Source: Isoetes taiwanensis
Lineage: Eukaryota > Streptophyta > Lycopodiopsida > Isoetales > Isoetaceae
Direction: 5' to 3'
NCBI GenBank assembly: GCA_021234155.1
Contig: JAJEKV010000035.1
Coordinates: forward strand, 6,106,068 to 6,170,067
DNA length: 64,000 bases
Shown here: in pieces, positions 1 to 51,240 of the stretch
Layout of the letters: every line of letters begins with the position of its first letter
Position numbering within the stretch: the first letter of the stretch is position 1
The notes under the pieces: generated by a model
Database searches by the model: none
Told to the model about the DNA's origin: nothing
Seen by the model: only the letters and a program-made list of their open reading frames with translations
Position numbers and translations under genes: made by a program

Positions 1-24
1 GCAGGTGTCGATGATGAGTGAATC
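1..24 (+). pseudogene. 3' tail of a paralogue of the small gene at 500-742
   Basis: The first bases read A-G-V-D-D-E-stop. This matches the tail T-A-V-D-D-E-stop of the ORF ending at 742, and the following bases (gaatc...gttcaac-like) also resemble those after 742. I infer that a tandem paralogue lies mostly left of the window. Only the end is visible, so whether it is intact cannot be told. Confidence 0.45.
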
Positions 25-456
25 GTCGAACACTAGTGTATCTGCCAGGAATATGATAATGATATATGAGCACTTCTATAGTATGTAAGGATGTAATAAG
101 CTTAATCAATGTTATCAGTGATGACTACTGTATCTGTTTATGATATACTAATGGTATAAACTATGTAAGGATGTAATAGCACAATGAATATTGTTTAATG
201 TATCATACCTGAGTGTAGTGTAAGGGTGTGCTCTTCGACTTCCACTATATGTGCAAGCAGTCCCTATTTTCAATCACACCTGAATTACTCAAGCACAAAA
301 ACTTCTACATATTAAAATCCACAAAACATGTTTTAAAAGCATACACATATCCATACGAAAGATGTATTATACTTGTATGTATACAACAGTCTTATACACG
401 CGCAATAATGGCGGTAAAGTCTACCCCAATAATTCATCTCAATAATTCTACTTCGC

Positions 457-464
457 TATAAAAG
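457..464 (+). promoter_or_regulatory. TATA box of the small ORF at 500
   Basis: TATAAAAG stands 36 bases before the ATG at 500. That is the right distance for a plant core promoter with a very short leader. It is the clearest TATA-ATG pairing in the left end and supports the 500 start. Confidence 0.5.
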
Positions 465-499
465 CTTCTCACTTCGGGGCTAAAGTTCATTCATCTCCC

Positions 500-742
500 A
501 TGGATTTTTCGCCTTCATCAGTTCACCACATCGAGGCGATCAAGTGCTCAATGAGCCATTCTGATCTTGTCGGTTGCCTAGACAGGGGTATTCTTCTTGA
601 TCCCTACCTGCGAAGAAAAGCTTTGGGCACTAAGATTCGTTGCCCTGAGCCAATTCGTGTTATGATCCATCTGATTTGGCTTCCTGAGTGCAATAGCTAT
701 GAGATATCAGGGATCACTACTACAGCTGTTGATGATGAATGA
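500..742 (+). CDS. Small hypothetical protein, 80 aa
   Basis: An uninterrupted 80-codon ORF with ATG in a good plant context (cccatgg) and a TATA box upstream. The product is acidic at its end and has no membrane segment; I do not recognise the family. It lies tail to tail with the transposase-like gene on the other strand, and a second copy of its last codons begins the window. It may therefore be a small duplicated gene, or a passenger of the large element. The stretch 743-1049 between the two genes shows nothing else. Function unknown. Confidence 0.4.
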   Translation: MDFSPSSVHHIEAIKCSMSHSDLVGCLDRGILLDPYLRRKALGTKIRCPEPIRVMIHLIWLPECNSYEISGITTTAVDDE

Positions 743-1049
743 ATCACCTGTTCAACATTGTATAGTATAAGAGCTCTTGTGTTAAGATGAAAAATGCAAG
801 ACGTAATGAATAACAAATAGTCTATTGTACCTTGCATATTATATATGCTATAGTAATCATGTAAAAGAACATTGCATACCTCAAGAGTTCTCATCATCCT
901 CGTTAGCTTCTTTAGACACTAATTCTTGCAACTGAGCCCCCACACTATTGCGGGGATCACCACTAACAATGGCTTCGTCTCTACCGCCCAACCGTAGTCT
1001 ATTGTTTTCAAATGTTGGTAGCGTGGCGAATCATTAGGATATTGGGTCT

Positions 1050-3968
1050 CTAATTCTTGCTCCAACAATCCCTATACTGCATTGCATATGAGGTACCCTT
1101 TCTGGCAATAGGCTCAAACCAAGAGACAAACACCTCTTCATAGTGAGGGAGATTAGTGTCCTCTACTGGGTCCTCTTCGGCAAAGGCCATCCACGTCGGG
1201 CAGTTATCATGTGGACTGATCGGCAAGACCATTCCTTTCTTGACATCTTGGTAGGGGTCGAATATTTCAACTGGGTTCTTGGGTCTACCAGAGAAAGGCC
1301 CGACATAATAAGATGCACCAATGTGCTCATCCACGAACACGTTATCGGGTTCTTCCAATGCAATTTGTCTCGTGCTGGGCCAGAAATCCTGAATGACAGC
1401 TCTACCGGGCTGAACGTCCCCAAGCACTCGCAACAAGGTGGACCAGTAGTCAATAACTTCATTCATATATGTGTTAGACCATGAGTTATCGCCGGCTCTC
1501 GAAATAGCTGTCCAGTGCATCATGTACTTGGCAATAGAAGCTCTCAATGCACCTATATCTTTCAAGCTCTCATATGGCTGCATGACCTTAGGTGACCCTC
1601 TCGGAATCATAGGTAAACCTTGGGCATCCTCCTTCCACATTTTGATTCCCTTTTCAGGTAGCCATTCCCTATGCCCTGGCCTCATCTTGTAGAACATTAG
1701 TGGCCATCCATCCTTCATGTAGAACTTGAAGAGTAGAGGTTCCAAATGACCACATAAACAGTCCTTCTTATCAGGGATAAAACCTTTCACGAATTCTTTC
1801 TAGTTGGGAACCTCTGACACAAGGTAGGGTGAAGGAGACTTTGAACTACACTGCCTGAAGAGTTGCATAAACTCTGGAATAGTCAATGCATTTGATCTTC
1901 TCAATAGAGTAGAGTAGTTTCCAAAGAGGGCATCTATGTCATCGTGGGTGTGTCCAACCATCATGAATCCCAGCTGCACCTGATCGAAGACACCTAACCA
2001 GACCAAGTATGACAAGTAAGAGAAAAGATACCTGTTCTTGTTTTGACCTGAGCAATTGTCTAGCTACAAGTAAAGCCTCCTAGGCAACTTCTTCGGTACC
2101 ATAGGGCCCTTGATAGGAGGCATAAAATCATTTCTAGTGCCATTCACCATTTTTGTCCTAAGGGCATCCGTGTTCAAAATTGCTCCACCCCAGCAGCTTC
2201 CAGGATAATCTGTATTTCTCAAATGTCCCCAATTGTCCTCAAATTGATTCTCTAGTGTTTTCAAGGCAAGATTTAAAGATCCCACATGAAAATTCGAATC
2301 ATCAGGCCAGAGGTCCAGCGAAAAGTGGCCCAAGGCACCTACACCATGCCCGTGCATGAGAGCACCAGTAACACTAACCTTCAATCGTTCACCCCTCCAT
2401 ACAGACTTTGCTAGCTTCTCTAGACGAGGAACCATGGTCTTATTCTGATCCATTTTATCATGTATAATGGTTAAGGCATGTTCTGGAGATCGATGAGACA
2501 AAGCTCTCCATGACCAGTATAGACTCCTGCAGGAAAGTTGGGCTGTCATGTGAGATTTCCTTTCCACGGCAAGCTCTCTTCTTTCTCTTGGATCTCTAGT
2601 TTTGGCAAGCTTCTCCTTTATCACAATACAGGTATTAAACTTAGAAAATGCTATCCCTTTAGCGATTGCTACCTCCGAGTGGTTCTCCTTCCACGTTGAC
2701 AAGAAGGACGACGGAGAAACATGTTTTCCTGTCATCTCGTGCACGGTAATATCTACCTCTTGATGTATGTCCTTTTTAGTCAAGATGGAAGGTAATCTCT
2801 TCACATTTTCTCTAGTGCCCCCACTCGTAACCTTTGAGCGGTGTGGCATAGTTTCAGCATTTTCATCTATATACATAGATAGCACAGCACTTCCGGCCAG
2901 TGTATGAGATCTTGTCTTCTTGGATCTGGAGTTTCCGTGCTCCGCAATCCTGTGGCCGCTCAAAAATAGCTTCCTCCATTTGTAAAATGTAGAAACTGGT
3001 ATACCGTAAGCACTATGCCATGCCTTCACACAGACTTGCTTGTTGTTCAGCATTAGCTTTGTCACACTTCCATTCTCTGAACAAAGATCTAACATGTTGT
3101 ACGCAAAAGTTGTACGTTCTGAGCTTTTCATGTTCCAGTAAAAGGTCCTCATGGAGGATACCTCTTTAAATGTGAAATTAGCACAAATAGCGTCAGGTGT
3201 GGTTTTCCTTTCACATTTGTTTGGGGTGGAGCGTGGTCTCGCCCTCCTATTTACCATGTGGTACTGTCTTTTCTTTGGTATTCCAGCCTCCGGCCTGATG
3301 GCATAAGCTTCTTTCTCGACCTCTGTCTCCTTCACGGCCGAAACTAGACTTGAAACTGGAATATTGTCTACTAGAACCAATGCTATTGGCCATCTCACCA
3401 AATCGTGCACCGGTGGCATTTTTGCACAAGCCTGACAGCGCATAGAAATATTTTTGGGCATGGGCAACAAATTCATAACAGAAACCCCTATCCATGTTTC
3501 ACCCAACTTCATGTCAAACACGACATCCTTTGGATCTGCGAAGGCGATGACACCTGAAGCATAAGGCAGGTTGCAGCACTCGTGCAGTAACAAGCATGTC
3601 TTCTCCACTAGTTTATCTCTGCAAATCCCCTGCACTTCAATTGGTTTACTGTTTTCTTCACAACCATTTTCTCGGACTTGCCAATTTATCCGTTTGATCT
3701 GACCAGGTAGTGTGCTAACATCGGGTGCTGCTTGGATTTCATTCTCAAGGTCGCTTTTGGACCAAAGAACGAAGCTACCGATAGCTTCCCCTAGCTTGTT
3801 CAATTCTGGTTCTGGGAACGGCAGTGGTATCTGTCCATCAAAGACAACTACAACAAAAACTACTATCAAATCGTCTGGCACAGGAACGTTGTGGTGGTTT
3901 TTGAAGTTATGCACTCTGCCCTCAGCCACCTTCTTCCCCAACAAGTAGAAAGACTGTAGAGATTCCAT
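1050..3968 (-). pseudogene. DUF7869-type transposase-like gene with two in-frame TAG stops
   Basis: One frame stays open over about 973 codons apart from two TAG codons at 2064-2066 and 1800-1802. Motifs in order: a segment near residues 160-220 resembling the DUF8039 domain of plant transposon proteins (PVHDLVRWP); a helix-turn-helix-like stretch near residues 308-330 (YGIPVSTFYKWRK); an acidic block (SLDLWPDDSNF); then, just after the first stop, LDNCSGQNK; then GHTHDDIDALFGNYS near residue 672. The D-N-C-x-x-x-N-K and GHTHxDID pair is what I know from the DUF7869 family, thought to be RNase H-fold transposases. The C-terminal 245 residues are unassigned. Both stops could come from CAG or TGG by one transition. 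The gene diverges from the ParB-methyltransferase gene, and a GATCGC palindrome sits about 30 bp upstream of its first codon. The start at 3968 is a first ATG; an earlier exon is possible. Confidence 0.75.
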
Positions 3969-3990
3969 CCTAAAAAAAGGTCAACATTGC

Positions 3991-4037
3991 TCGTCAACAT
4001 CGCGAAGGCGATCCTCTGGACCTCATTAGTAAGAAAA
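3991..4037. repeat. Left part of a ~110-bp tandem unit with GATCGC palindrome, split by Helitrons
   Basis: tcaac(a)atcgcgaaggcgatcctctggacc here matches the units at 9465, 9576 and 9683. The unit breaks at 4037 and resumes at 9389, where the matching part (agggcccaacaggtattattttatgag) follows. With the intervening 5351 bp removed, palindrome spacing is 114 bp, against 111 and 107 bp in the intact neighbours. Confidence 0.8.
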
Positions 4038-6237
4038 CTAGTAATGGTGCCCAGCGTTGCTGGGCAAATGTTGGGAACATTTGTGGATGGAAACCTATTC
4101 AGCTCAGACTCATTAACCAAGTCCATCATATCTAGGCTATAAGAGGTTTTTGTGCATTTGATAACCTTCCCTTTGCTCTATCCTGCATATCCTTTTTTCC
4201 TCATTTTCTTACACACTTTCTTTTTTCCCCTTTCTTATTTTTCCTGCACATTTACTTTTCTCCTTCTCTCTCTTTTTTTTTTCTTTTCTTTTTTACCCTC
4301 TTCTCCCTCCTCTTTTCCTTCCTTTTCTCCTTCTCATTTTTCCCTTTCCCTTTCCCTTTTTTGACGGCTTTTTTCCTTCCCTTTTCACCTGTCTCCACCC
4401 TTCCCATTTTTCTCATGCTCTTTTTTCCCTTTCCGCCTCCCTTTTTCTTTTTCCCTTTCCTTCTTTTTTTATCATTTCCCCACCCTTTCCCTTTTTCCCG
4501 TGCCCTTTTCCTCTTTCCTTCCCCCCTTCCTTTTCTCTTTCCCTTTCCTTTTTCCTTTTCCCTTTTTCCCATGTATTTTTCCATTCCCTTTTTTCCACTT
4601 TTTTTTTTTTTTGCATTTTCTTCCGCCTTTCCCTACCCTCTTCCCTTTTCCCGTCCCTATTCCCCTTTTTTTTTTTTTCTTTTCCCTTTCCCTATGCTCT
4701 TTTTCCCTTTATTTTTACCCTTTCCTCACCCTTTCCCTCTTCCGTTTTTTTGCCCTTTTTCCTTCCTCTTTTCCATTTCCCTCCTTATTCCTCATGTTTT
4801 TTTTTTCTTTCCCCTCCCCCCTTCCTTTTCTCTTTCCCTTTCCTTTTTCCTTTTCCCTTTTTCCCATGTATTTTTCCATTCCCTTTTTTCCACTTTTTTT
4901 ACTTGCCTTTTCTTCCGCCTTTCCCTACCCTCTTCCCCTTTTCCATTTTTCTTCTTCCTTTTTTCTCATGCCTTTTTTCCTTTCCTTCCCCCCTTCCGCC
5001 TCCCTTTTTCTTTTTCCCTTTCCTTCTTTTTTTATCATTTCCCCACCCTTTCCCTTTTTCCCGTGCCCTTTTCCTCTTTCCTTCCCCCCTTCCTTTTCTC
5101 TTTCCCTTTCCTTTTTCCTTTTCCCTTTTTCCCATGTATTTTTCCATTCCCTTTTTTCCACTTTTTTTTTACTTGCCTTTTCTTTCGCCTTTCCCTACCC
5201 TCTTCCCCTTTTCCCCGTCCCTATTCCCCTTTTTTTCTTTTTCTTTTCCCTTTCCCCATGCTCTTTTTCCCTTTATTTTTACCCTTTCCTCACCCTTTCC
5301 CTCTTCCAGTTTTTTCTGTGCCCTTTTTCCCTTCCTCTTTTCCATTTTCCCTCCTTATTCCTCATGTTCTTTTTTCTTTCCCTTTTCGCCTCCCATTTCC
5401 TTTTTCCTTTTCCTTCTTTTTTTCATCCTTTTCTCTTTTTCCATGCCCTTTTCCTCTTTTCCCTTTTTTTTTGCTTCTCTCTTTTCCTTTCCATTTTTCC
5501 ACACCTTTTTCCATTCCATTTTCCACCTTTTTCACATGCCCTTTTTCCTCCTTTTCCCACCCTCTTCCCTTTTTCCCTTTTCCTCTTTTCCTATTCCATG
5601 TTTTCTGTTCTCTTTTTGTTTTTCGCTTTTCCCTTTTCCCTTTTTCCATCTCTTTTTCCCTTTCTTTTTTTTCCTTTCCTCACCCTTTTCCTCTTCTCGT
5701 GCCACTTTCTCCCTCTCCCTTTTCCTCATGCCCTTTTCCCTTTTTCGCCTCCTTTTTCCTTTTTCCTTCCCTTTCTATTTTTCCATGCCCTTTTTTCCTT
5801 CTCTCCATCATTCTTATCTTCCCCTTTTTCCTTAATCCACCCTTTCCATCTTCACCTTTTTTCCGTTGCCCTATTTTTCTTCCTTTTCCTCCCTTCCCTT
5901 TTCTTTTTCCTTATTACATCCTCACCCTTTCCCCCTTTTCCTTTTCATAGTGTCCTTTTTTCCTTCCTTTTTCTCCCTTTCTTTTTCTTTCCCTTTTTCG
6001 TGCTCTTTTCCCTTTCCTTTTCCCTTCTCCGTCTTTCCCTTTTACCCGTGCCTTTTTGCCTCTCACTTTGCCCTTTTCTCTGCCATTTTCCCTTTCCTCT
6101 TCAGAGATCAGAGCATGGCCAATCACGGTGGTGGGAAGTTGTGCAATAAATCTCGGCCTTCGAATGCAATCAGACGATCTCAACTATCTAAATTAGGGTT
6201 TGATTGAAGACATACGCTAAAACTTTATAATATAAGA
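4038..6237 (-). mobile_element. Helitron B (non-autonomous, minus strand)
   Basis: Read on the minus strand it begins TCTTATATTATAAAG at 6237 and ends with a 17-base hairpin (GCCCAGCAACGCTGGGC, 4065-4049), a short spacer and CTAG at 4041-4038. These are the TC start, the hairpin and the CTRR end expected of a plant Helitron. The next base is T, as required by insertion between A and T. No Rep/helicase is present, so it is non-autonomous. Most of its body is a pyrimidine tract. Its 5' TC abuts the 3' CTAG of Helitron A with no base between. Confidence 0.8.
4150..6105. repeat. ~2-kb polypyrimidine tract with internal tandem copies
   Basis: The plus strand is nearly all C and T for almost 2 kb. 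Long open frames on both strands are low-complexity products of this composition (Phe/Pro/Leu/Ser one way, Lys/Glu/Arg/Gly the other) and not genes. Larger units recur: blocks around tttttcccatgtatttttcc are at about 4565, 4860 and 5130, and a block around atgctctttttccctttat at about 4695 and 5258. Such mirror-like purine/pyrimidine DNA can form triplex (H-DNA); that is known of the sequence class and not shown here. Confidence 0.9.
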
Positions 6238-9200
6238 CTAGTAAATTGCCCACCGTTGGTGGGCTTTACATGTGATTGTTCACCTTTGTGATCGTTCCAT
6301 GTGATGTCTTGGAAGTGGGCTTAGAGTGAGGAGATGCGTGATTGATGGTATAAGAGTTTTGTTTGTATTAATTTAATGGTCTTAATGTGATCCAAATCAG
6401 ATTAAGTAGTGTCTATTTGTATGTGGTTATTTTGCATATGTTGGGCTTTTATAAAAGATAAACCCATTATGTGTTGTATTTTGAGCACAAAGCCCAAAAG
6501 ATTTTAAGATGTTAAGATAGTACCACATAAGTCCATTACAGCTACATTCTAGAACCCTGGTTATAAGGTTTTAGAAAGCTTCTAAATGGAAATCCCACCT
6601 AACCTTAAACTTGAAGGCCAAAATGAGGAGGACCTCCTGTATCATGATAAATCCCACCTAACAATCAATCCAATCACCGCTCAATCGTGCCTGAGAAGCC
6701 GTCTCATTTTCCTAATCCAGTTTCCTTGTGAAGTAATGGTTTCCAATCATACTGCTATGAAATGCAAAATTGATCAAGACATCCAAACTCTATATGTGCC
6801 ATAGTTGGGAGCAATCCACAATTGTTGTGTTGTTATGTTAGAAATATAAAATGTATTCAACAACTTAGTGAAGCAAAAAATTGTAAACTGGGATTAGGCT
6901 AAAAGGCAAAAACTCTGTAAGGAGCAAAATAAAACCGAAAAATGTCAAGAACACTTTATAGTTTGCAAGGTGATGCTTTGCATATTCTTGCAAAGTGCAT
7001 GGGGACAAAATATAAGGTATTGTTGGGATTTCTTTGGAAGAAGTTGTGCAACAACATTGTGATTCTTGAGACTGAGTTGGTGTGCATTATTAAAAGAGCA
7101 AAATATAGGTATAGGTAATCCATTATCAATTGTGTGGTGCACACATCCTAAATTATGTAGCATGTTATGATGCATGGAGACCATTTTGTTTTATGGTGGT
7201 CTATTTTGTTTTAACAGCTATACTACATTGGCTCCAACACTGAACAGTTTAATGTGTAAATGAAGTCATGAACATACCACTTTATGCATTGATATGGTAA
7301 TATTGATTTTGAATCTGGATCTCTTCTATCAATTGGACTTGTAGTTTCACAAATCTCAACTACTTTGTTTCCATATCTGTAGGACTGAAATGGTTTCACT
7401 CAGTGGGGTTTAACACATCTCAACTACTTTGTTTCCATATCAGTTAGTAGAACATGCCCAACCGTAATAAAAATGATGCACAAACTTTCTATATTGCTAG
7501 ACACCAACATACCTTGTACAACAATAAATTAATTCACTCGGATGACAAATTCTTTCAGATTGTTTCATCATTAGCTAAAGAATTTCTACAATCGTCCGCA
7601 ATGAGAAAAGAAAAATAGTTGTTGTAAATTATCTCTTTGGATCGAATTTTGAAGGATTAAAGCCGGTCAGAGCATGGCACCTATGACAGATTGCACCTAT
7701 GGCATTTGTGAACTTCGATATCCGGATAAAAGCGGTTTGCACGTCACGGCATTTGTGGACTTCAAATATCTCAGTATTTACGGCTTGAAATTTGCAAAGC
7801 TCTCCAATTCATTGGTTACCTCTCGACCGCTTGTATAAGGTGTCTCCTCCTTCTCAAGTAAGCATGCCCTCAATCTTTTGCGATGCAGTGCGGTGCAATC
7901 TCTCCTTATGCATCTTCAAAACTCTGCAGAAAGGTTAAAAATTGCTCATGTAACAAATCCTGAAATTAGAAAATAACTACTCCACTGTTGCAAGTTTTAG
8001 AAAAATTGGGATAGAATTACGGCGACTTCAGATCATGCCTTGACAATCTCCTAAGGAAACAGAGCTAAACATGTGAAACCGTTAAAGCGGATCCATCCAA
8101 TCAACAGTAACAAATATCTTGTTTTACACTTCCATTTGTTTTAACCCTTAGTTTCACCCTCGAGGGAATGTCTTGACTTGATCGTGAGGTTCTCACAGAC
8201 ACGGAAAAAGATGCATAACCTATGAAAATAGTTCATGAACTCTGCTCTGCTGTGAACCACTTGTTTTCTGGTATGTTTGACTCATCTTAGATTGTTCTTC
8301 TTTCCATATAAATATGCTATCCTTTTTTTGCCAATAACTGTGTCTTTCGGAATATGTGCCTTTGAGAATACTTTGTGAAATCTGCAAAGCTCTCCAAGTC
8401 ATTGGTTACCTCTCGACTTGTATAACGTGTCTCCTCCTCGAGTAAGCATGCCCTTAATGTTTTGCAGATGCCTGGTCTGTGCAATCTCTTCTTGCGCATC
8501 TTCAAAACTCTGCAGAAAGGTTAAAAATTGCTCATTTAGTAAATCCTGAAATTAGAAAATAACTACTCCACTGTTGCAAGTTTTAGAAAAAATTGGATAG
8601 AATTCTGACAGCTTCAGGGATCATGCCTTGACAATCTCCTAAGGAAACAGAGCTAAACATGTGAAACCGTTAAAGCAACTGCATCCAACCAACAGGTAAC
8701 AAATATCTTGTTTTACACTTCCATTTGTTTTAACCCTTAGTTTCACCCTACAGGGAATGTGCTGACTTGATCGTGAACCCAAACAGACTGAAGCATGAAG
8801 ATATTCCGGCGCCCAACAGACTGAAGCAACTTAGAAGAATAGCAGCCAAGCAGAATCGTGAATTAATTTGTGTAAATCCATAAGCTTTCAATTCAACTGA
8901 CCTGTGTAAATCATGGCCTGGCATAGCAGACGAATCACAGAACGAATTTGCTTCAACTGACATGTCTAAATCGTGGTCTAGCATAGCAGAAGAAATACAG
9001 AACTGGCTGGATGTCTGGAGGCCATGCTTGGTCCGATGAATGCTCCCAGACACAGCAAGTTCGGCCATGGCAGAACAGAAAGTTTTGAGCTTTGCCATTC
9101 AAACCAGCCTTAAATCAATCCAGCCCGAGCGAGCGGAAAAGAGGGTTGTGAGCTTTGCCATTTTTGGATCAAACTCACCTCCTTGCCGAATCGATGGGCC

Positions 9201-9388
9201 ATAACCAAGCCAAGCTTACGCCAAGCTTAACCTAGAGCACTCCTGCCGCAAACAAAAAAAAAACCCCTAGGAAAGGTAATTAGGAAACGATGCAGATGAT
9301 GCCACGTGGCCTGGCCTGGCGGAATCTCAGCCGCCCAATCTAGGGCGCCATTCAAGACAGACATACACTATAATTTTATAATATAGGA
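6238..9388 (-). mobile_element. Helitron A (non-autonomous, minus strand)
   Basis: On the minus strand it begins TCCTATATTATAAAATTATAG at 9388 (host A before it). It ends with hairpin GCCCACCAACGGTGGGC (6264-6248), AATTTA and CTAG at 6241-6238. The first 30 bases match those of Helitron B with a few changes (both run on to GTATGTC), so the two are one family with different interiors. No helicase ORF. The interior is AT-rich and contains a ~405-bp direct duplication. An ORF at 8748-9098 on the minus strand has no recognisable domain. Confidence 0.8.
7785..8780. repeat. Two direct ~405-bp copies inside Helitron A
   Basis: 7785-8190 and 8376-8780 are near-identical direct copies about 590 bp apart. 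Both run from tgaaat(t/c)tgcaaagctctcc through the cttgcaagttttagaaaaa region to agggaatgt(c/g)(t)tgacttgatcgtga. They differ by scattered substitutions and small indels. The sequence between them (8191-8375) is unique. Confidence 0.8.
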
Positions 9389-9720
9389 TAATGCAAATTA
9401 TTCAAGGGCCCAACAGGTATTATTTTATGAGTTCAGCATGAAGGGACGACATAATACTCAAGAAGATCGCGAAGGCGATCCTCTGGACCACATTGATAAG
9501 AAACTAACAGGGAAAAGACACAGAGGGCCCAGCAAGTATTATTTTATGAGTTCAGCAAGTATAATACGTCAACAAGATCGCGAAGGCGATCCTCTGGACC
9601 ACATTGGTGAGAAACTAACAGGGAAAAGACACAGAGGGCCCAACATTATTTTATGAGTTCAGCAAGTATAATACGTCAACAAGATCGCGAAGGCGATTCT
9701 CTGGACCACTTTGGTAAACA
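9389..9720. repeat. Tandem ~110-bp units with GATCGCGAAGGCGATC palindromes
   Basis: Units centred on palindromes at 9465-9480, 9576-9591 and 9683-9698 share aagatcgcgaaggcgat, cctctggaccacatt, agggcccaac and tattttatgagttcagca. Together with the split unit at 3991-4037 this makes four copies. Two further, more diverged palindromes follow at 9837-9852 (GATCGCAGTCGCGATT) and about 9902-9914. Short open frames here only reflect the repeat. Confidence 0.85.
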
Positions 9721-10408
9721 TCTAGAATCCTTCAAATCTAACTAGAATCTTCCTCTAACCTAACAAACATTCTTCAGCTCTAACTATTTTCTCTGACCAT
9801 TTAAAAAACACTTTCCTTGGCGATTTATCTCCACAAGATCGCAGTCGCGATTAATTCGATGTGAGCTCGCGCCGCGTTATACGTCCTAAGCTCAGGAGGA
9901 ACGCAGTCGCGATTCTTTTAGGCAGAGAACCGAGCTGGTGCAACTGATATTTGAGTAACTCTCGCAAATTAAATGTTAACGTAAATACTAATTGCAACTG
10001 TTATTTCCACAACAATTCTTTGCCTTTTTGTTAATTAGAATAGAGTCTGTCCTGATTTGTCAGCCTGGGAGCAGATCCATTGTTATGTTACAGTGATCTC
10101 CATTAAAAATCTTTGGGTATGCGATGTACTCTCGGGAAGGAGTATTTATGCCCGTTATTAGGATCATCTTCTAGCCTCATTCTTACACTGAGACCGAGCT
10201 GTCTGACCCCCTCATTACTCAATTAGTCGAAGAAATAAACAATTGATTCAGGGCTTGCTTACCAGATTATACACAGCCGTGAACAGCATATACCAAAGAA
10301 GAGATGGTGCTAATACAATAAATTGCATGTTGGTTATGAAAACACTTTTATAACCTATACATAAACAACAAATCAAAAATCACCTCCTGAACCCTGGCAG
10401 CTTAAGAT

Positions 10409-10530
10409 ACTCGAGCGCCTTCAAGATGAGACCTAGCGCCTTCAAGAACAGATCGAGCGCCTTGAAGAACAGATAGGGCGCCCAGACGAGGAGATCGAGC
10501 GCCTTCCAGAACACCTTGAACGAGCGCGAA
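10409..10530 (+). repeat. 21-bp microrepeat coding a heptad-like ERLQEQI pattern
   Basis: Five imperfect 21-base units of the form gagcgccttcaagaacagatc. In one frame they read ERLQDET, (stop)RLQEQI, ERLEEQI, GRPDEEI, ERLPEHL, a heptad-like pattern typical of coiled coils. A stop interrupts it and no start is clear. It could be a decayed exon or a simple repeat in the regulatory space upstream of the methyltransferase gene. Similar gcgccttca words recur in exon 1 at 10950-10975. Flanks 9915-10408 and 10531-10900 show no other gene. Confidence 0.5.
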
Positions 10531-11051
10531 ATTCAGTCTCAAAATTCAAATGCAGTTGTCTTTTTCCGTCCTTCACTCGTCCTCCTGAGGCTTGTACTGT
10601 TTTATTCCGCGGGGCATTTATTACGCGGGGTATTGGTACGGGGGGTTGGTTATATCTCTCCCTCTACGTACAGATTTTGAATCCAGAGGTCCACGTCAAA
10701 AAGTACCTCTTGTCCGGAACATGCCTCAATTAAAATAAATTTGTTGCGTCTCCATAATTAAGGGCACCTGCATTAATAGTGTGTAATTATTAATGACGGC
10801 CGCATTAATGGCAGGCATTTATGGCGCGTCAGATCTCGCACGTGTGATATTAATTTAATACGGCCGGCAGATCACTATTTATTTCCAGAATTCGGGAATT
10901 TTCCTTACGACCAGCGCCATCGATGAGCGCCATCGACGATTTCCGCGCCTTCAGGTCACCCGAGCGCCTTCAACCGCAGACGTATAGAAGCCGCTTTCTG
11001 ATTTCTTCCGGCGCCCGCGATCCATGGCACCTAAAGCCCATTTCCGAGAAG

Positions 11052-11411
11052 GTTAGTTCTAGCCCCCTCAGCTCAAGAAGATCGCGGCCGCGATTTATTT
11101 CGATAATGCATGTTTAATTTTATGGTTCATCTTTCCGTCTTGAAGTAGTCATAAAGAAGTATGGAACTCAACAGGATCACGACTGCGATCTTTTTGAGTG
11201 CTCAGCAGGATCGCGGCCGCGATCTTCATGAGAGCTCAGCATGATCGCCACCGCGATCTTGTAAAGTGCTCGACAGGATCGCGCCCGCGATCTCATGGAG
11301 CACTCAACAAGATCGCGGTCGCGATCATGCTGAGCACTCAAGAAGATCGCGGCCGCGATCTTGTTGATTTCACGGCGGTAGGGATTAATAATACACTTCT
11401 CTTGCTTGCAG
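11052..11411 (+). other. Intron 1 of the ParB-methyltransferase gene, holding seven GATCGC palindromes
   Basis: Donor GTTAGT follows exon 1 and a pyrimidine-rich acceptor (cttctcttgcttgcag) ends at 11411. In between are palindromes at 11080, 11175, 11209, 11243, 11277, 11311 and 11345, the last six spaced exactly 34 bp apart. Exon 1 ends in phase 0, but the frame that carries the protein after the acceptor needs phase 1. Either one splice site is different or a base was gained or lost. Confidence 0.5.
11080..11360. repeat. Array of seven 16-bp palindromes GATCGCNNNNGCGATC
   Basis: Six copies from 11175 onward recur every 34 bp; one lies 95 bp before them. Arms are nearly constant while the 4-bp core varies: GGCC, ACTG (with one arm change), GGCC, CACC, GCCC, GGTC, GGCC. 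Flanks such as caaca(a/g) before and ttgttg or tgctga after extend the dyad. Single related copies lie at 12991-13004 (intron 3), 15202-15216 and 15308-15322, and tandem units lie at 3999 and 9465-9914. Confidence 0.9.
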
Positions 11412-14400
11412 CTCTGGATTTGTTTCGCGGTCCAGACGTTGAGCCTGCGAAGATCATCACACCTTCCAATGAAAGGAAGTGGTGCATTGAAATTGCACAA
11501 GCAATTCCACAGACAAAAGGAGACCGCAGAAAAGACCTATGCTTGTTCCTCAAGACTGGCAAAAAAGCTGAGGACATACAACAGATAGGAATTGTCATTG
11601 CTATGTGGGAAGGAACAAAAAACAATGTCCAAGATGCCATTATATGCAGCGTGGAGGATACACAAAATTTGCAGTTCCTTGAGTACGTTCTTAAATGGAC
11701 AAACTATGATCCCTCACTCATGACAGCTAGCAAGTTAAACAAGCCGGCCACAGGAAAGAATGTTCCGACCAGTGCAAAAGGCTACGACTGGGAGCTGCAG
11801 TCCTATTCAATCTCTGTCTCTGTCCGGAATAACTGGAAATAGGGATATATTGTCTGGTTTCTCGACATGCAGAAAAGGTTTGCTAGCAGATAAGAAACCA
11901 CCCAGCATTGCATTGAAAGCTAAACGAGATGAGAAAATGCCCTCGGTAATGGACACAAACTGGTTAAGAGCTCAGGGGAAGAAAAAACATGTAAAGCCCG
12001 TTTCTTTAGCAGAGGACTCTACCCAGACCAGAGCCCTATCTGTGGAGCCTGTTTCCACTGCCCAGCCTTCTGCTATTATTAATCCTACTCAGCCTTTGGC
12101 TATTTGTGCTCCCCCTATTGTGACGAAAGATACTACGGTCCCAAATAAGATTTCTAAGTTCACGATCAACCTCCGCAAACTGACTACTTCTGACAGCGGA
12201 GAGCCTTCGTCTTCTCGCACGCCCCCTTCCGTCTCAGGTATTTCATCCTCGAAAAGCTTAACATGGCCCGTTGTTTCTGAACTGCCGACGGAGCTTAAAT
12301 TCAATCCTGAGGAAGAACGCAAGTTGGCAGAACAAACTGCACAGAAGCTTGAACAATTTAAACGGTTCTATCCGCTTGGTGTGAACTGGTTTATGAAGGT
12401 CTCTATCTTTGATTGCGAGCCAGCTCTGCTAACCTCACGCATCGAATGCGTTCAAACGACCATGTGCAGACACTCGTGAAGAGCTTCAAGACGTATCCTA
12501 CGGAGGTGCTCACACCGGCCGACGTTGTCCCCTTCGACCCGATTACCAGGTGATTGTTATTGTCCATCATTTCTGTTTTGTGGCTTCCTAACTTATAAGT
12601 GCACATTATTTCAGGAAGAAGATCACGTGGAACACATAAGCTGATTTGAAGGGCAAGAAATGTTGGATAATTTCTGGTAACCACAGTATATGTGCAGCTC
12701 AATTGCTTTGTGGTGTTGTTGGAGAGCTGGAACAGCGGCTAGAGTTTGCTAAAGCCTACGCCAGGAGAAGAACAAGAGTGCTTAATGGAAATTTGACAGA
12801 TAGAGAATATATTGAATTGAGCATTCAGTGCAATGAAGTCATTGCTAACACTGTATACAGAGAACCATTGTTAGAGAAGCTTCAACAGCTGCGGCATCAA
12901 CATAAGGCGTATGGATGTCCTCCGCAAGGTCCTATTGGTACTGCCACAACCTCAACATAGAAGGTATTTTTCTTATCTTAGCTCATGAACATCGCGGCCG
13001 CGATTTTCCTGACCATTTCTTTTGTAGGACTTCCACGAGATAGCTACCACAACTTTTAAGGTGAAGGAGCTAAAAGACGAAAAAGAATTTATTTTTATGG
13101 AGGAGCGGGTCTTCAGAAAATTAATGGAAGTGGCCAACAAATGGGTGAGCAAAAAAATCTGTGATGAACATGGAGATTTTCCTGATAAGCCCACGAAGGA
13201 CTTCTTCAACAAACCTGGTTAAGATCCCTTCGAGGCATGTCTAATGCAGAGGTGTCTCAGCTTCTTGATGAGATTTTGGAAGGAAAAACATACATTAAGG
13301 TGCAAGCCGGATATCATGGCAGGTTTGATTGCAAGCAGCGCGCCATTGACATTAGAAGCTTGACCTTCATGCGGAAAGAGATTTTGTCATACGCTTCCAC
13401 GTTTCTTCAGAAAGAATACACTTTCTGGGAAGAGTTGCTGTCTGATTTTCCTGCTTTCACGGAACAACGGATTCTTGATATATCTGATTCGGATACAGAG
13501 TACGTGAAAGCCAATTACAATAAGGATCATGTTGTGGGTAATTTGCCCGATTTTTAGAACCCATTAGATCGATTTTGAAACCTGATGAGGCTATCAAAAT
13601 CAAAGAAAAGAAAAATGTTGTACATGCTGTGACAAAGGAAGGGATTCCTACCTCCACTCCAGTATCTGAGAATGCAACTTTGGTGTTCATTGACATTAGA
13701 GGATTCTCTACATTATGGATGTGCAAAAAATACATGGAACTCTTTACAAGAATATCCAGCATGACAACTGCTAATATTTATCACCTGGTGATTCTGATGC
13801 GGTCTGTGAACTTGCCAGATTGCTTGTACAGCCAGAAACAGATTCAAGGCGGGTCCCATATTTCTGTAGGCACATATGACGAGCCAGGATAGGTGAACAA
13901 GAAAAGGGTGAAGGAATATCAGTATTACATCACCCATATATGCAGTAACAGAAGCGACTCCAGGGTCAGCTCGATATTGCCAGAACTGGAGCTTCGTTTA
14001 CCACCGGTGAGCACTGCACCAAAAGAACACCCCCTTGCCACCAATGCCTGTCACTGGTAACGAAGAAACTGATGAGAAAATGAGAAAACAATGGCAGACT
14101 TACTTCACGGGTAAACCCAGGTACAAGTTTGTCGGAATGGAAGGTGATCACGTGCTGAAGTGCCAGTTGAAGACATCATATGCTTATAGTTGACAAGCTT
14201 GTGCCCAAGGATGGTTGTGTCCTTGATTTCTTCTCAGCAGGTACTACTTCCCGTGTCGCCTTAATACAGGGAAAGAAAAGTATTGCTTTCGTAAGCCAGG
14301 GTAAAGTATGCCGATTTCTGAGGGCTTTCTTGGATAAGCTCAAAAAAATGGTTTGCCAGGGCACTGGGGAGACAGTTGAAGAGGAGAAGGCAGACACTAT

Positions 14401-15201
14401 AAATGATCCTGACAAGATCAATTTAAATATTACCCAGAGAACAGATATATCTAAGATTGATGAAATCTTGGATCAAATGGATGAGAAAAGCTATGAGGAA
14501 AGGATGCAGGAAACGAAAAGACTTCTGGAGTCTATTGAGAAAGGTATTATTGCGCTAGAGCCCGTGTTTCAAAAATTGGGGGCTTTAAACAAAAAATTTG
14601 ATGCCTACATGCCTTTCTTGACAGGCGGGTCGAATTTCGAATACGTAGGCATGGACATGGATCAAGAGGGTGAGCCATCAGGTACACAAGAGCATCAGGT
14701 TCCAGCCAAGAAAAAGAAGCTCTTCCATGCACCCGATTTTGCCTGTGCTGTGCAGAGTGGCGCATCGATCGAAGGCAGCGCTATGGATACTGAGACTGGA
14801 GGACCGGATCCACATATCCAAGTCCTTGCACAGGCCATGTCTGTAGACATCCCAGATGTAACAGGCTATACTGAGATGGACACAGCAGAGGTTATACAAA
14901 GGGGCCAGGAACATGTTGCTAGGATAGCTGCTGAGATAGGTGTTGTACCTGAGTCAGTATTAGAAACCCAGATGGACTAATTTCTGCCCCTCTGGCAAAG
15001 TAATGTACATTGCTATATTTGAGGAATATAACTTACAAGGCTTTGAAGTTTTCCATATCTTTGAGTTTTCTTATTGTTTGTTTCTTGTCTAAACTTTCCT
15101 TGACTCGATATTTGCTAGCACTTTCTTAGAATTATTGGCTTCTACAAACTTCTTCTAAATTAAGAATTCGAATCAGATGGGTAGCTAAACAGCTCAAAAT
15201 G

Positions 15202-15322
15202 TTCGCCACCGCGATCCTCAATATCACTTTGATTTCTTTTCATCCATGTGTAGATCTTAACGGACTTGTGATATTATATCCATGGGCTAGCTAAGCAGCT
15301 TCAAATCTTCGCCGTCGCGATC
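15202..15322. repeat. Two further GATCGC-type palindromes downstream of the methyltransferase gene
   Basis: ttcgccaccgcgatc (15202-15216) and ttcgccgtcgcgatc (15308-15322) keep the right arm GCGATC; the left arm is TTCGCC/TTCGC. Both follow a 'gctagctaa(g/a)cagct' context, so a ~106-bp unit is duplicated here. They mark sequence on the far side of the methyltransferase gene, possibly near the element's end. Confidence 0.7.
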
Positions 15323-15943
15323 CTGCTGAGTATTTTTACTCTTTCTTGTGGACTGCTCTTACTCATAAAGGAGCTTGGGATAGCCTTATACATGTTAAAG
15401 TCGGATACATCGCTGGTTGTGACAAAAAAACAACGAAAAAAAGGGCAACTTTTACTCTGTTGCAACCACTTACGGTGTTTTATAGACAACCAAGAACCTA
15501 TTTCATGCTAAACGAGAATTCCGAAATTCTCTAATTAATTAATTCGTGCTTTGATCTATTTTGATCCTTTTCGCCATTTGTGATGCATTACGATTTATTA
15601 ATGCATTGCATTATTTTCACTGCTTATATGGCGTTTACTTTCTTATTGTGTTGCATCACATCTTTGCAAGTGGGTTATTTTTTATGAGTTTTTATTTATT
15701 GATTCCACTCTACATTCTTTTCGGATGTGTCATTTTTATTATTTTTCTAGATACAAACATCCATGGGTCCCTTATGTATCTTATTTTGAGATGTTTGAAT
15801 CTGTCCTGGAATGCATATGCAAGAAATGCAATTGCAATATCTATTGCCAAAATAGTACCTTTGCACGTGCTTATTTTGATTTGATTGCATCAATGACATG
15901 ATGTTCTAGATGTGAAGTTGACCCTACTATTTTAATTTGCAGG
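15323..15943. other. Intergenic, no gene seen
   Basis: AT-rich sequence with short hydrophobic open frames and no recognisable domain. The border of the palindrome-bearing element and the 5' end of the next Helitron probably fall here or just beyond, but I could not find terminal motifs. Confidence 0.4.
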
Positions 15944-18749: not shown

Positions 18750-20480
18750 TTTCCGATCTTTATATTCCTTAAGAATATCTGGATAAGCTTTTAAAACATT
18801 GCCACGCACCCATGAAGCGTCCTCCAAAGGTTTTTGAGCAAACTTTACCAAATATTATCTTGAACCACTAGTGGATTTATCCGCCAAAATTGTTTCCGGC
18901 TCTAGAACTTTGGAATCATCAATCAATTCTGGCTCACTTAACCTCCCAAGTTGAGGTTACTCCTTACCATGATAAGCCTTTAGGAATGACACATTCACTA
19001 CATCATGCATTTTCCAACCTTGAGGCAATCTTAATTGATATGCATTCTCATTGACCACTTTAATAACTTGAAATGGTCCATGGAAACGGGGTGCCAACTT
19101 AAGATCCTTCTTGAACGCATCTTTCTTAAAGTGGCCTTTATGGATCCTAATCCATACCCAATCTCCTTCCTTAAAAACCATTGGTTGCCGCAACTTAGAT
19201 GATTTATTTGCAAAAGATGCTTGAGCAATACGAGCTTGAAGCAAGTCTATGAGATCCTTATGCTCAATAACCAAATCATCAGCAGCTGGAACATCCTCAC
19301 ACACTCGAAAGAGTGTCTCCCGTACAGGCTGAGCATAGACCGCCTAAAAAGGGGTCATCTTTATGGTAGATTGATAGGTATTATTATACACAAATTCAGC
19401 AACAGGCAAATACTCTTCCCAATGACCTTGATGTTCATTGACAAATCCCCTTAAGATGGAACAAATAACCTTTTTTACCACCTCGGATTGTCCATCAGTT
19501 TCTGGGTGGAAAGCAGTGGAGAACCTTAACTCTGTTCCCAAATGCATAAATAATGCCTTCCAGAATTTACTAGTAAACTTTGTATCACGATCAGATACAA
19601 TAATCTGTGGCAACCCATGTAGCCTAAATATCTCTTTGATAAAGAGCGTAGTCGCACTGTAAGCCGTCAACTTATCCGAACAAGGATTTAAAACCTGGAA
19701 AGCAAACTGATGATTATGATTCCATTGGAAAGGAACATCTTTTCGTAGCAATAAATATAAATCTGAAGCTAAACGAGCAAAATTCTGTACAAACTTCCTA
19801 TAATAACTGAATAAGCCCAGAAAGGGCAATGCAACAACTGAAGTAGGTACTGGCCAATCCACAATTGCTTGTACCTTACTGGGATCAACTTTAAGACCCT
19901 TAACGCAAACAATATGACCCAAATATTCAATTTTCGATTGGGAAAAGATACTTTTCTTAGGATTAAGAGTAATAGACTCCTCCCTTAACCGACGTAAAAC
20001 CTCCTGCAAATGCAAGTAATGATCTTCCTCGGACTTATTAAAAACCAATATGTCATCAAAGAAAATGACAACATAAGCGCCATGCACATCTTCAAATATT
20101 TGCCCCATTAGCCTCGCAAAAGAAGCTGGCGCATTTGTAAGTCCAAATGGCATGACCAAAAACTCATAATGTCCAAAGGTTGTCCGAAACGCAGTCTTAT
20201 GAACATCTTCAGGCGCAACCTTAAGTTGCCAATACCCTGACTTAAGATCAAGACGGCTAAAAACTGTGGCACCTTGGAGTTGATCAAACAAATCATCAGC
20301 CCTTGGTATAGGAAACCGATTCTTAATGGTTATCTTATTCAAAGCGCGATAATCTATACACATGCGCTCAGAATTATCTTTTTTCTTAACCAACAAGAGG
20401 AGCACCAAAAGGTGAAGAATTATGGCGGATCAATCCAGCTTGAAGTAACTCATCAAGCTGGCATTTGGATCAACTTCAGT
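18750..20480 (-). pseudogene. Ty3-type chromovirus retrotransposon pol remnant
   Basis: From 20408 down: reverse transcriptase with a CIDYRALNKIT block, SRLDLKSGYWQ and catalytic FFDDIL. This passes in frame directly into the integrase core (SDRDTKFTSKFWKAL, then the HPETDGQSE block). RNase H, protease-side sequence and the integrase zinc finger are missing, so a large in-frame deletion lies near 19680. A TAG at 19344-19346 follows MTPF, where Ty3 elements usually have Gln. The next segment (19304-18957) is the integrase C-terminal part with a GPF-like RFHGPFQVI block. A decayed chromodomain-like stretch follows near 18905-18750. The 5' side is cut at about 20480 after a frameshift near 20405. 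No intact LTRs were seen. This is a dead copy. Confidence 0.9.
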
Positions 20481-22461: not shown

Positions 22462-23905
22462 CATAATTTTTTTTTGAAGTAACACCTGTAGGATAGGGCG
22501 TTATCGCACTTAACACTCTGCCGCGAGAGTTTTGGGCCATCCAATCACCATCAAAATCGCTCAAAATCGTCCATTTGATAACATCCTAGTAACACCCTAG
22601 GATGTTATGAAGTAGCAATGTGTTATGGCTCATAACACTATTGGCCAAGATTGATCTCAACCGTTGGATCACTATAAACTTGAGGGGCAGTGTCTTAAGG
22701 ATTTGTTAATCTAAATAACCTTTGTCTCTTATAATGGCATGATAAAAGATAGTCAACTATGTTATAATGGCATGATAAAAGATACTCAACTATGGGTGTG
22801 GAAATCTTACTCATGAATATAGAGACTATTACTAGATCGTCTAGTTGGCATTGTGTCTAAAGCCTGTTGGTGTGCCTTTTGCTAGTTGCGTCAACGATAA
22901 AAACAAACTCCATTCAATTGGAACAAATATCTTGCGTGGACCAAACTAATAAAAACAAATTCCATTCAATTGTGATGAATATCCTGCATGCACAGCACGA
23001 CTGAAACAATTGCAAACTCACTTTAAAATGTCAAGAGTGTTTTACATTTTCCCAAAATGGCGATATCCATCCCCTATGTTGTTTTGCATCTGCTATCTTA
23101 CTCATTTTTCGGCAGTGGCAGTCCTCCAACAACTCGAGCAGACCCATACGCATAATTTTTTTTTGAAGTAACACCTGTAGGCTAGGGCGTTATCGCACTT
23201 AACACTCTGCCGCGAGAGTTTTGGGCCATCCAACACCATCAAAATCGCTCAAAATCGTCCATTTGATAACATCCTAGTAACACCCTAGGATGTTATGAAG
23301 TAGCAATATGTTATGGCTCATAACACCATTGGCCAAGATTGATCTCAACCGTTGGATCACTATAAACTTGAGGGGCAGTGTCTTAAGGATTTGTTAATCT
23401 AAATAACCTTTGTCTCTTATAATGGCATGATAAAAGATAGTCAACTTATGTTATAATGGCATGATAAAAGATACTCAACTTTGGATCTCAAAAGCTTACT
23501 CATGAATATAGAGACTATTACTAGATCGTCTAGTTGGCGTTGTGTAGACAAATCAACTACCAAGCCTTAACCAATTTGACCTTGCTAAAGCCTTCTGGTG
23601 TGCCTTTTGCTAATTGGGTTGGGTTAAAAAGTTTTCTCACAGAGTGTGTGGATGTGCTTACTTCCTATTCCTAAAGTCTCCGTCAACGATAAAAACAAAC
23701 TCCATTTAATTAATACAAATATCTTGCGTGGACCAAACAAATAAAAACAAATTCCATTCAATTGTGACGAATATCCTGCATCACAGCACGACTGAAACAA
23801 TTGCAAACTCACTTTAAAATGTCAAGAGTGTTTTACATTTTCCCAAAATGGCGATATCCATCCCCTATGTGTTGTTTTGCATCTGCTATCTTACTCATTT
23901 TTTCG
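22462..23905 (+). repeat. Tandem duplication of LRR-gene promoter and start
   Basis: 22462-23130 and 23151-23905 are direct copies beginning 'cataattttttttttgaagtaacacc' and ending in the start of the LRR receptor-like gene (ATGGCGATATCCATCCCC). Copy 1 codes only the first part of the signal peptide, with a frame change, before copy 2 begins. Copy 2 has about 90 extra bases near 23548-23680. The downstream gene's promoter therefore exists twice. Confidence 0.85.
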
Positions 23906-26900
23906 GCAGTGGCGCTATAATACCTCTGCCAATGCATGCAGAGATTTTGCTGTTATTCAAGGCCGGCATAACCGACGATCCTTTTGGTGCGTTAGCAGGT
24001 TGGAGCTATAATACCTCTGCCAATGCATGCAATTGGACAGGGGTTGCATGCACATCTGCTGGTAGAGTCGTGAATTTGACTCTGCCAGAAATGCTTCTGG
24101 CCGGCTCTATTGCACCAGAAATTGGACAGCTTTCGTCTCTCCAATATCTGCACCTGGGCGGCAACAAATTTGAAGGCAGCATTCCTTCCTCTGTTGGTGC
24201 TCTTCAAAGTTTACAGTATATAAATATGTCCGGAAACTATCTCTCCGGTAATATTCCTCCCTCTCTTGGCAATTGTTCATCTCTCATAGGATTGAGGCTG
24301 CATCACAATAATCTAAGTGGCATAATACCTTCGGAGCTGGGAAGTCTTCACAGACTTCAGGTTCTGCTCTTACATTCCAACGACCTGTCAGGAAGTATAC
24401 CATCTCAGTTGGGGAGTCTTCAGAGTTTACAGGTTCTACGCCTAGACACTAATGAGCTAACTGGTGAAGTGCCATTGGAGGTGGGGAGTCTTCAGGGTTT
24501 ACGGTATCTAGTCCTAGACTATAACAATCTCACTGGGAAAATCCCTTGGGAGTTTGGAAATCTTCAAAATCTGGAGGAACTAAGCATGGCTTACAACTAT
24601 CTGAATGGAATTGTTCCAGTTTTCCTTGCCAATTGTTCCTCTCTTCAAAATTTGCGGCTGAACGGAAATAGCTTGACAGGTATGATCCCCCCAGAATTGG
24701 GAAAACTGCTGAACTTGACTGTTCTAGATTTGTCCAACAACAATCTCAGCGGAAGTATTCCCACTACTCTTGGTAACTTGTCATCTCTCACAAATCTATG
24801 GCTGGGTAACAACCCCCCTTTAGTTGGCAGAATTCCAAGCGAGTTAAGGAGGCTCAAACATCTTCAGCGCCTTTCTCTATATGGAAATAATAAATTGCGA
24901 GGACCTCTACCAGAAGACCTTGCAAACTGCACTGAGCTATATTGGGTGGACACTTCTGGAACTCTGCTAAGTGGAAGATTTCCTTACTTCCTTCTCAAGC
25001 TGCCAGAAATATCAACAATTTCCTTGGGTTCATATGACGCCACAGGGCAACAGTTCCCACATGAAATTTGGAATATTACAAAGCTTGAAATTTTTTCCAT
25101 ATCTTTTGCTGGCCTAATTGGTGGCACGATGCCAAAAGAAATTGGAAATTTGACATCTCTTATGGTACTTGAGGTGGATTCTAGTTCATTTGGAGGCATA
25201 AGCATACCAGAAGAATTGACCAACTGTATCAGCCTTCAGCGCTTGAGAATTAGTGGGTGTGACTTCAAAGGTACGCTGCCTTAAACCGCGGTCCTTGCAA
25301 GTTCTATCAATCCGACGAATTTACAGCAAATAACATCAACATGGGTTATTTTCCATAATCATCAGAATATTGTAATGAGTTTTAAAGAATATTCCGTGAT
25401 TATCTTGATAATCTCACGGATATTCTTTTCAACAATGGGAATTTTTCCAAACTTCTATACCTCTATCTGTTCAGCAACTCTCTTAATCAAGTTCTGTGCC
25501 TTCCATATCTGTTTGGAGCCCTGCAGAACTTTGCTTCAGTTAGTGCCCTCGCTTTTGAACCATGTTTTTCCCGGCTGTCAAATGGGCCTTTTTTGTAGCC
25601 TTGGCCCTGGGAAAAAAAATCTGCAAAGAAAGGGCTTTCAATCTTCCATCAAAGCCATGCCCAAAAATGCTATGGTTATGGCTAAGTCTACAATCATCTC
25701 TAGAATAAGATCTTGGCTGATCTGTGGTTGGAAATTTGTGCACAATTACAAAGACTTGATATGATGCGTAAATGCAAAAGCCCAAAGCCTTTCTCCAGTT
25801 GTTTGATTTTGTAGATCCGAGCTAGTTTTTGTTTTTAAGTAACCTGGTAGCGAGGTGCCTCTATCCTTCCAAAATCATCTTCTTCATTTAGACTTTTGAG
25901 AAGAAACTCTGGACCACGTGGAATTGAACCCAAACAGATGCTAAGGAGTATAAACCCACTTGAGAGTAACTTACTTGAAGGACGCTCCATAGCTCCACAT
26001 GGTGATCCATTCAAGTCCCAGCGTTTTGGAAGTAAAAACATGCCATATACAAATGAATTTCCAATGGAAACAACAAATTGGTAGTGAAGAACAAAAAGCT
26101 TTCTTAAGAACTTTCGATAACAAAGATATTTTATATCAAGACATTTTTCTACCCAAAGGTAGATCAGTTGAGCCTTTACCAATGTGCTCAAAACTACTAC
26201 GCTCATTGATTTATCATAATCCCCCGTGGGGGGTTAACCCTCTTTCTTCTCTAGGAAAGCTTTGGCAACTAGAAGAATTTACTGCAAAGAAATAACATGT
26301 TTCATGGGAGCATCCCAGAATCATTAGGGAATTGTACGAGTCCATGACCGATCTCCGTTTAAATAATAATCTGCTCTCAGGAAGCATACCCTCTTCATTT
26401 GGGAATTTTTCCAAACTTCTATACCTCTATCCACTTGTTCAGCAACTCTCTTAATGGTTCTGTGCCTTCCAGTTTTGGAGCCCTGCAGAACTTGCTTCAA
26501 ATAGATCTTCACGATAACCAACTCTCTGGTCAAATCCCTGGTAGCCTTGGCAATTGTACCTCTCTACAACAACTTGCTTTATCTTCCAATAATTTGAGGG
26601 GAGGATCCCCTTCTAAACTCTTAGCAAGTGCTCAAGTCTACAGGTGCTGAGCTTATCTAATAATTCCTTGGAAGGATCTGTACCTGCAAGTCTAGAAATT
26701 TGTGCACAATTACAAAGACTTGATCTAGGGAACAATCTGCTAAGTGGGAAGCTTGAAATCAATTTCACTAAGTTGCAATCCTTACTAGTTGTATCGGTTC
26801 CTCAAAGTAACCTGGTAGGCGAGGTGCCTCTATCTCTGGAGAAATGCTCAAGGTTGCAATTTCTAGACTTGAGAAGGAATAACCTTACTGGAATTATACC

Positions 26901-50188: not shown

Positions 50189-50329
50189 ATCAATTTTTTT
50201 AACCTACTTAAAACTATAAAAATAAAATGCAAGTCACGATCAACTACTTACCAAAATAAGGACGCTGCGTGTACAAGATCCCAATCGGGTCCAAATCGTA
50301 ATAGAAAGGCTGCAAATAGTAACAAAGCA

Positions 50330-51175: not shown

Positions 51176-51240
51176 GTTGGGCATGCACCATTCAATCCAA
51201 AAACCTATTCAATCTAAAAAACATGATATACTAACCTTAG

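Follow-up and report, generated by a model that had tools for sequence, protein, structure and literature searches.

A DUF7869 transposon of Isoetes taiwanensis with a methyltransferase-like accessory gene and a palindrome array

Introduction

VANDAL21 of Arabidopsis encodes a transposase together with an accessory protein, VANC21, and has a short motif enriched in its non-coding parts. VANC21 binds this motif, which stands, often tandemly repeated, upstream of VANA21 and inside introns of the VANB21 and VANC21 genes, and VANC brings about a loss of DNA methylation (PMC5735166). An accessory gene related to DNA modification is also carried by fungal DNA transposons with TET/JBP dioxygenases; these encode enzymes for the oxidation of methylated cytosine and belong to several superfamilies, and the available portion of that report mentions no palindrome array (PMC12730594). 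Here we describe a DNA transposon in a 64,000-nucleotide stretch of the Isoetes taiwanensis genome (contig JAJEKV010000035.1, positions 6,106,068 to 6,170,067; hereafter the window), which carries a DUF7869 transposase-like gene, a methyltransferase-like accessory gene (MT) and a family of palindromes.

The Isoetes element parallels VANDAL21 in that its motif precedes the transposase gene, recurs in the inferred introns of the accessory gene and partly forms tandem arrays, here with a 34-bp step. It differs in its DUF7869 transposase, its 4-bp target-site duplication (TSD) and its methyltransferase-like accessory protein; VANC contains DUF1985/DUF287, and neither family was found in Pfam scans of the proteins of the Isoetes element. 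The motif is a dyad of 16–30 bp rather than the 9-base YAGTATTAY of VANDAL21. The PF25273 (DUF7869) proteins available for comparison (15, including P0001) belong to the same family as the product of the first gene and are known only as proteins on contigs of 2.3–6.8 kb. A transposon with terminal inverted repeats (TIRs), an accessory gene and an array of a self-specific motif is a known type; the proteins are unfamiliar, and a name for the transposase superfamily may already exist. No paper on Isoetes DNA transposons joining a transposase, a methyltransferase and palindromes was found, and the term DUF7869 did not occur in the literature searched.

Results

Ends and extent of the transposon

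The DUF7869 gene, MT and the palindromes are parts of one DNA transposon. Comparison of copies revealed a sharp right end at window position 15551, and the inverted right-end sequence then led to the left end, 493 bp before the first base of the window (contig position 6105575); the left TIR, AAGCATGATTTCATTAATTGGAGAA, lies outside the window in the left-flanking stretch L023. Both ends were located in 9 of the 17 regions examined (16 oriented regions, then C1034), and all nine copies have TIRs of about 25 bp, with 0–5 mismatches to the 25-bp pattern, and a perfect 4-bp TSD. The duplications are TGAT in the window and AGCT, AAAT, TGTA, TTAC, GTAT, AGTA and ATAT in the other copies of the first eight, with AAAG flanking the ninth, C1034, on both sides; calculated from base composition, the chance of a 4-bp TSD in nine of nine copies is 1.5e-21. 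Sola elements are known for TSDs of 4 bp. The remaining eight regions miss one or both ends, the stretch or contig being too short or the sequence too diverged. The right ends of L011, L006 and L018 represent diverged subfamilies that keep a recognisable terminal sequence and the paired right-end palindromes, with aligned DNA only about 64–74% identical to the window.

Complete copies measure 9.2–11.1 kb, and the window copy is longer (16.0 kb; 16,044 bp in total) because of a Helitron. Helitrons begin with 5' TC, end with 3' CTRR and insert between A and T. The insertion agrees with this definition at both ends (TC...CTAG) and at its A/T site, and in copy C81 the same site is uninterrupted. 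Long low-complexity stretches with one pyrimidine-rich strand occur within the insertion (4190–6150) and elsewhere in the window (50244–51204).

A small open reading frame (ORF) was detected by tblastn in all 10 left ends examined, many times as a tandem pair and in some copies as a single member, and C1034 has it as well. The first member of the window pair spans the left edge of the window (from 2780–3000 of L023 into the window), the two members are 39% identical, and the 80-aa product matched no Pfam family above chance.

The initial annotation had assigned both genes and the palindromes to one element, placed at 1050–15322, and had treated 4038–9388 as two nested Helitrons to be removed. 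A search for full-length copies, TIRs and TSDs recovered nine complete copies with both, none of the copies examined had the genes split between two elements each bounded by its own ends, and the single element is further supported by the congruent divergence described below. A Helitron insertion was confirmed by its ends and the intact site of C81. The annotated extent was too short: the element runs from −493 to 15551. Its family of palindromes upstream of the first gene, between the genes, in the introns of MT and beyond MT was recovered as well, and the assignment of the first gene to DUF7869 held. The coordinates are collected in Table 1.

Table 1. Features of the transposon copy in the window (positions of the window; a point in the strand column means that no strand applies)
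Feature	Position	Strand	Evidence or remark
Transposon, part inside the window	1..15551	.	TIRs; TSD TGAT/TGAT
Small ORF, 80 aa, second member of the tandem pair at the left end	500..739	+	tblastn, copies
DUF7869 transposase-like gene	1050..3980	-	PF25273, E 7.2e-42 with TAG read through
Palindrome just upstream of the DUF7869 gene	3998..4013	.	Pattern match, 1 mismatch
Helitron insertion, foreign to the transposon	4038..9388	-	TC...CTAG ends, between A and T
Five palindromes, intergenic region	9465..9914	.	Pattern match, 0–2 mismatches
Methyltransferase-like accessory gene MT, a pseudogene here	11024..14980 (about)	+	Frames read, homologous copies
MT exons	11024-11051, 11412-12549, 12615-12963, 13028-14980	+	By eye from GT...AG; frameshifts present
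Seven palindromes, inferred MT intron 1	11080..11360	.	Pattern match; five of six steps 34 bp
Palindrome, inferred MT intron 12964-13027	12990..13005	.	Pattern match, 2 mismatches
Presumed motif IV position of MT (VFIDIRGF, not DPPY)	13551..13740	+	Frames, homologous copies
Motif X/I/II-like stretch of MT (...DGCVLDFFSAGTTSRVALIQGKKSIAF...)	14186..14350	+	Evidence on homologous copies
Two palindromes near the right end, 106 bp apart	15201..15322	.	Pattern match, 1 and 2 mismatches
Right TIR, TTCTCTAATTAATTAATTCGTGCTT	15527..15551	.	TSD TGAT next to it, 15552-15555

The two genes

On its profile score the first gene is certainly a member of DUF7869: PF25273 scored 143.6 bits in the window and 142 bits in C1034, against a curated cut-off of 26. 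The window gene comprises 977 codons, including two internal TAG codons and the last TAG, and C1034 has an open frame of 1019 codons, with the last aligned residues (935–975) in another frame. P0001, from a public contig, is 33% identical over 98% of the length. Viral contigs yielded 14 pattern stretches and no relatives, and the DUF7869 profile had no match in the PDB. The protein is probably the transposase of the element, judging from its family, the invariant aspartates and the constant association with these ends.

The second gene, MT, encodes a protein of about 1100 aa and runs divergently from the first, with about 1.6 kb between the right edge of the insertion and the inferred start codon, which is the arrangement and spacing that the initial annotation gave once the insertion is removed. 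The window copy is decayed, with stops and frame changes, and was read from three frames. The last exon of MT in C1034 is open over 630 codons, and the gene changes frame at points before this exon. Our genome-wide searches covered 1,658,258,908 bases in 1110 contigs; the last exon of MT from copy C6 gave at least 93 matches, with 87 of 4238 candidates scored; roughly one in three is free of stops in the matched part, and the element family is therefore not only a fossil.

Co-occurrence and divergence of the two genes

A palindrome-based sample of 18 stretches, forming 16 clusters, was drawn from the first 50 of 1716 genome-wide places; six isolated places (C2, C44, the second of C68, C72, C89 and the last of C103) were left out of the fetched set, although a 3-kb cut around the palindrome of C2 contains pieces of MT. 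Both genes were found by tblastn in 15 of the 16 clusters, divergent in all 15, and C68 has one short piece of MT only. Since a sample chosen by palindromes may be enriched in two-gene copies, loci were also picked by the DUF7869 gene alone. This search returned at least 51 matches, from rows 2–12 of which 10 loci were taken, excluding the window and C1028, where MT was already known; MT was present in the expected 3 kb at 8 of them, each time on the divergent strand (8/8).

The protein distance matrices of the two genes are congruent: their Spearman correlation, computed on 118 pairs from 16 copies, is 0.69, which none of 2000 label permutations reached. Among pairs with a finite synonymous rate (dS), the ratio of non-synonymous to synonymous substitution rates (dN/dS) stayed below 1 throughout, with a median of 0.415 for the 34 DUF7869 pairs and of 0.33 for the 34 MT pairs. 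dS was saturated in 23 of 57 DUF7869 pairs (12 copies) and in 75 of 109 MT pairs (16 copies), and pairs of fewer than 300 codons and stretches with a local identity below 40% were left out. Taken with the congruence, these ratios suggest that purifying selection has preserved MT alongside the transposase. Two observations count against such a joint history. The ratios are biased downward by the saturated dS values and the dropping of poorly aligned stretches, and no MT was found in the 3-kb stretch at two of the ten DUF7869-picked loci, C1084 and C1037. When C1084 was extended, neither MT nor a right end appeared within 6.8 kb, and three palindromes stand beside its DUF7869 gene.

Palindromes

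The palindrome GATCGCNNNNGCGATC has 16 matches with up to 2 mismatches in the window, against 1.02 expected and a maximum of 4 in 100 shuffles, and all 16 fall within 3998–15322. Genome-wide, 1716 exact matches stand against 11 for a reversed control pattern. With 2 mismatches allowed, the first eight complete copies contain 80 sites, and their flanks, 27.7 kb in all, are free of them; C1034 adds 9 more, with none outside the element, so that the nine copies hold 89 palindromes inside and 0 in about 29.5 kb of flank.

Mapped by tblastn, 60 of the 80 sites lie between the genes, MT intron 1 included, and 14 to the right of MT. Another 6 lie over MT, 3 in introns and 3 labelled as exon; we take this label as an overrun of the match, because the corresponding site of the window sits in the inferred intron 12964–13027. 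In all nine complete copies the 300 bp upstream of the DUF7869 gene, as mapped, contain a palindrome, and a pair 106–117 bp apart lies near the right end in eight of them, being absent in C103. No palindrome was found to the left of the DUF7869 gene, or at the left end, in the nine copies, nor within the gene in the first eight. Arrays with a 34-bp step occur in several copies, the densest in the inferred intron 1 of MT.

The core hardly varies, partly owing to the choice of matches. The flanks are conserved too, with T in 73 and C in 65 of 80 sites at −7/−6, and G in 52 and A in 64 of 80 at +21/+22, which extends the dyad to about 30 bp: TCnnnAAGATCGCnnnnGCGATCYTnnnGA.

Descent of the accessory protein

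The initial annotation had described MT as a ParB-like/beta-class amino-methyltransferase. A weak likeness was found to the C-terminal half of a beta-class methyltransferase, and none to ParB (see Discussion); of the hidden Markov model searches it proposed, DUF7869 was positive, N6_N4_Mtase stayed below threshold and ParB gave nothing. PF01555 (N6_N4_Mtase) matched at 15.1 bits against a cut-off of 26.7 (E 0.022, in the final part of the profile), and was matched by 5 of 9 members of alignment A5 (best E 0.014). PHROG 3008, a DNA methyltransferase, matched at E 0.0095, and separately in 3 of 9 members (best 0.018). A tblastn search of phages returned 8 weak records (best E 0.06), 6 of them at the motif I stretch, where 5 are annotated as DNA methylase and 1 is unannotated. 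Aligned by hhalign with nine phage methylases, the stretch reached a probability of 71.5 and a score of 44.7 over 56 columns; 100 column shuffles gave at most 2.2 and 25.4, the whole protein 53.9 and the reversed stretch 0.3. Descent from a beta-class DNA amino-methyltransferase is thus weakly supported, and only for the half with motifs X, I and II, because the hhalign signal was lost when the motif I stretch was removed: what precedes motif I gave a probability of 0.1, that is, no similarity.

That last result and several others weigh against a methyltransferase origin. No methyltransferase match exceeded any curated cut-off. Four of the nine A5 members lacked an N6_N4_Mtase match even at E 1, among them L048, which has the longest frame of all single-exon copies retrieved and is fitted better by Cas9_PI (E 0.0022). 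In the PDB, four unrelated chains scored better than RsrI methylase, which took fifth place (E 0.55); the phage records are partly close relatives of one another and hence not independent; and the AlphaFold model of the MT region had a mean predicted local distance difference test score of 40.3 and was not used. Cas9_PI (1 of 9 members), DUF713 (2 of 9) and other weak families, each found in one or two members only, were set aside as chance matches; the weak matches of the first A5 member to other families have stated positions after motif I.

No homologue of MT was found in 5.8 billion proteins at E ≤10 with the degraded window composite or at E ≤1 with alignment A2, with scoring limited in both searches to the 8000 candidates that had the most words in common with the query. 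The same composite had no Pfam match at E ≤1, one weak and irrelevant NCBIfam match, irrelevant PDB matches and four weak PHROG matches, none to a methyltransferase.

Beta-class methyltransferases (PF01555, RsrI) resemble MT in the order of a presumed motif IV followed by X-I-II and in the 56-column profile match. They differ from it in that MT, at about 1100 aa, has long extra parts, lacks DPPY, has a short motif I and scores below threshold. Motif IV of this class is defined as (D/N/S)PP(Y/F/W). At the presumed motif IV of MT, a position set by order and spacing without a profile match, seven of seven open copies (chosen as stop-free) read D[IM][RH]x[FM], with the aspartate kept and never DPPY, and DPPY is absent from the examined rows of a 16-copy alignment. 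The glycine-rich motif I lacks one residue. MT is probably a derived, inactive methyltransferase, the capacity for methyl transfer having been lost, as the altered motif IV suggests, and for the same reason self-marking by canonical methylation appears unlikely.

Other features of the window

An open frame with reverse-transcriptase-like and integrase-like stretches (19344–20429) is presumably part of a Ty3/Gypsy-type element. An interrupted leucine-rich-repeat receptor-like gene was recognised by eye at 23818–27120, and the segment 39582–42296 contains repeated, mutually related stretches that are open in several frames.

Discussion

The best explanation of the whole, to which we would give an even chance, is a TIR transposon with an accessory protein, a probably inactive methyltransferase derivative, that binds the palindromes, in a layout like that of VANC. 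The palindromes would be binding sites of a dimer encoded by the element, most likely the accessory protein, and a protein bound to them next to the 5' end of each gene, inside introns and towards the right end could control expression or counter silencing by the host. By analogy with the VANC layout, binding would most likely fall to the accessory protein, with anti-silencing or self-regulation as its effect. A more specific proposal is that a captured bacterial-type amino-methyltransferase has become a probably non-catalytic palindrome binder, with its sites spread through the promoters and introns of the element, as an independent VANC-like system of anti-silencing or self-recognition; we hold this combination tentatively, and would sooner doubt than assert it.

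The main rival to the accessory protein as binder is the transposase. If the palindromes were sites of the DUF7869 protein, for transposition or autoregulation, MT would do something else. This appears unlikely to us, though the constant site upstream of the DUF7869 gene, the right-end pair and a weak HTH_23 match in the DUF7869 protein (E 0.05–0.09) all speak for it. So does C1084, which keeps its three palindromes beside the DUF7869 gene without MT, but these are compatible with either protein as binder. Against it, the palindromes do not mark both ends, since the left end has none, and the densest arrays stand in the inferred intron 1 of MT. A different role for MT, that of an active atypical amino-methyltransferase marking the palindromes (for example at the adenines of GATC, which they contain) and thereby labelling or protecting the element, is less probable still: the N6/N4 ancestry signal and the invariant aspartate of motif IV favour activity, but the replacement of DPPY in every open copy and the shortened motif I argue against it.

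A ParB-like partition system, which the initial annotation had proposed, is very improbable. A GNHS stretch of MT resembles by eye the GxHR motif of ParB, and GNH occurs in 8 of 12 examined alignment rows and in C1034; however, no Pfam ParB family matched at E ≤10 or, in a separate scan, at E ≤1, and tblastn with the segment gave 0 phage matches and 7 weak plasmid matches (E 2–5), none annotated as ParB. ParB homology was accordingly rejected, and without it partition is unsupported; an integrated transposon, moreover, has no need of partition. That two unrelated elements merely lie nested or side by side has a negligible probability: the window copy does contain a nested Helitron, but the nine two-gene copies within the same TIRs and TSDs, together with the congruent divergence, already refute a chance neighbourhood.

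After VANDAL of Arabidopsis, the Isoetes element is a candidate second example among plant transposons in which an accessory gene is combined with an array of a motif specific to the element itself. With many open-frame copies in one genome, the link between protein and motif is directly testable. If the accessory protein is indeed a repurposed methyltransferase, it would show how a transposable element can turn an enzyme that modifies DNA into one that reads it.

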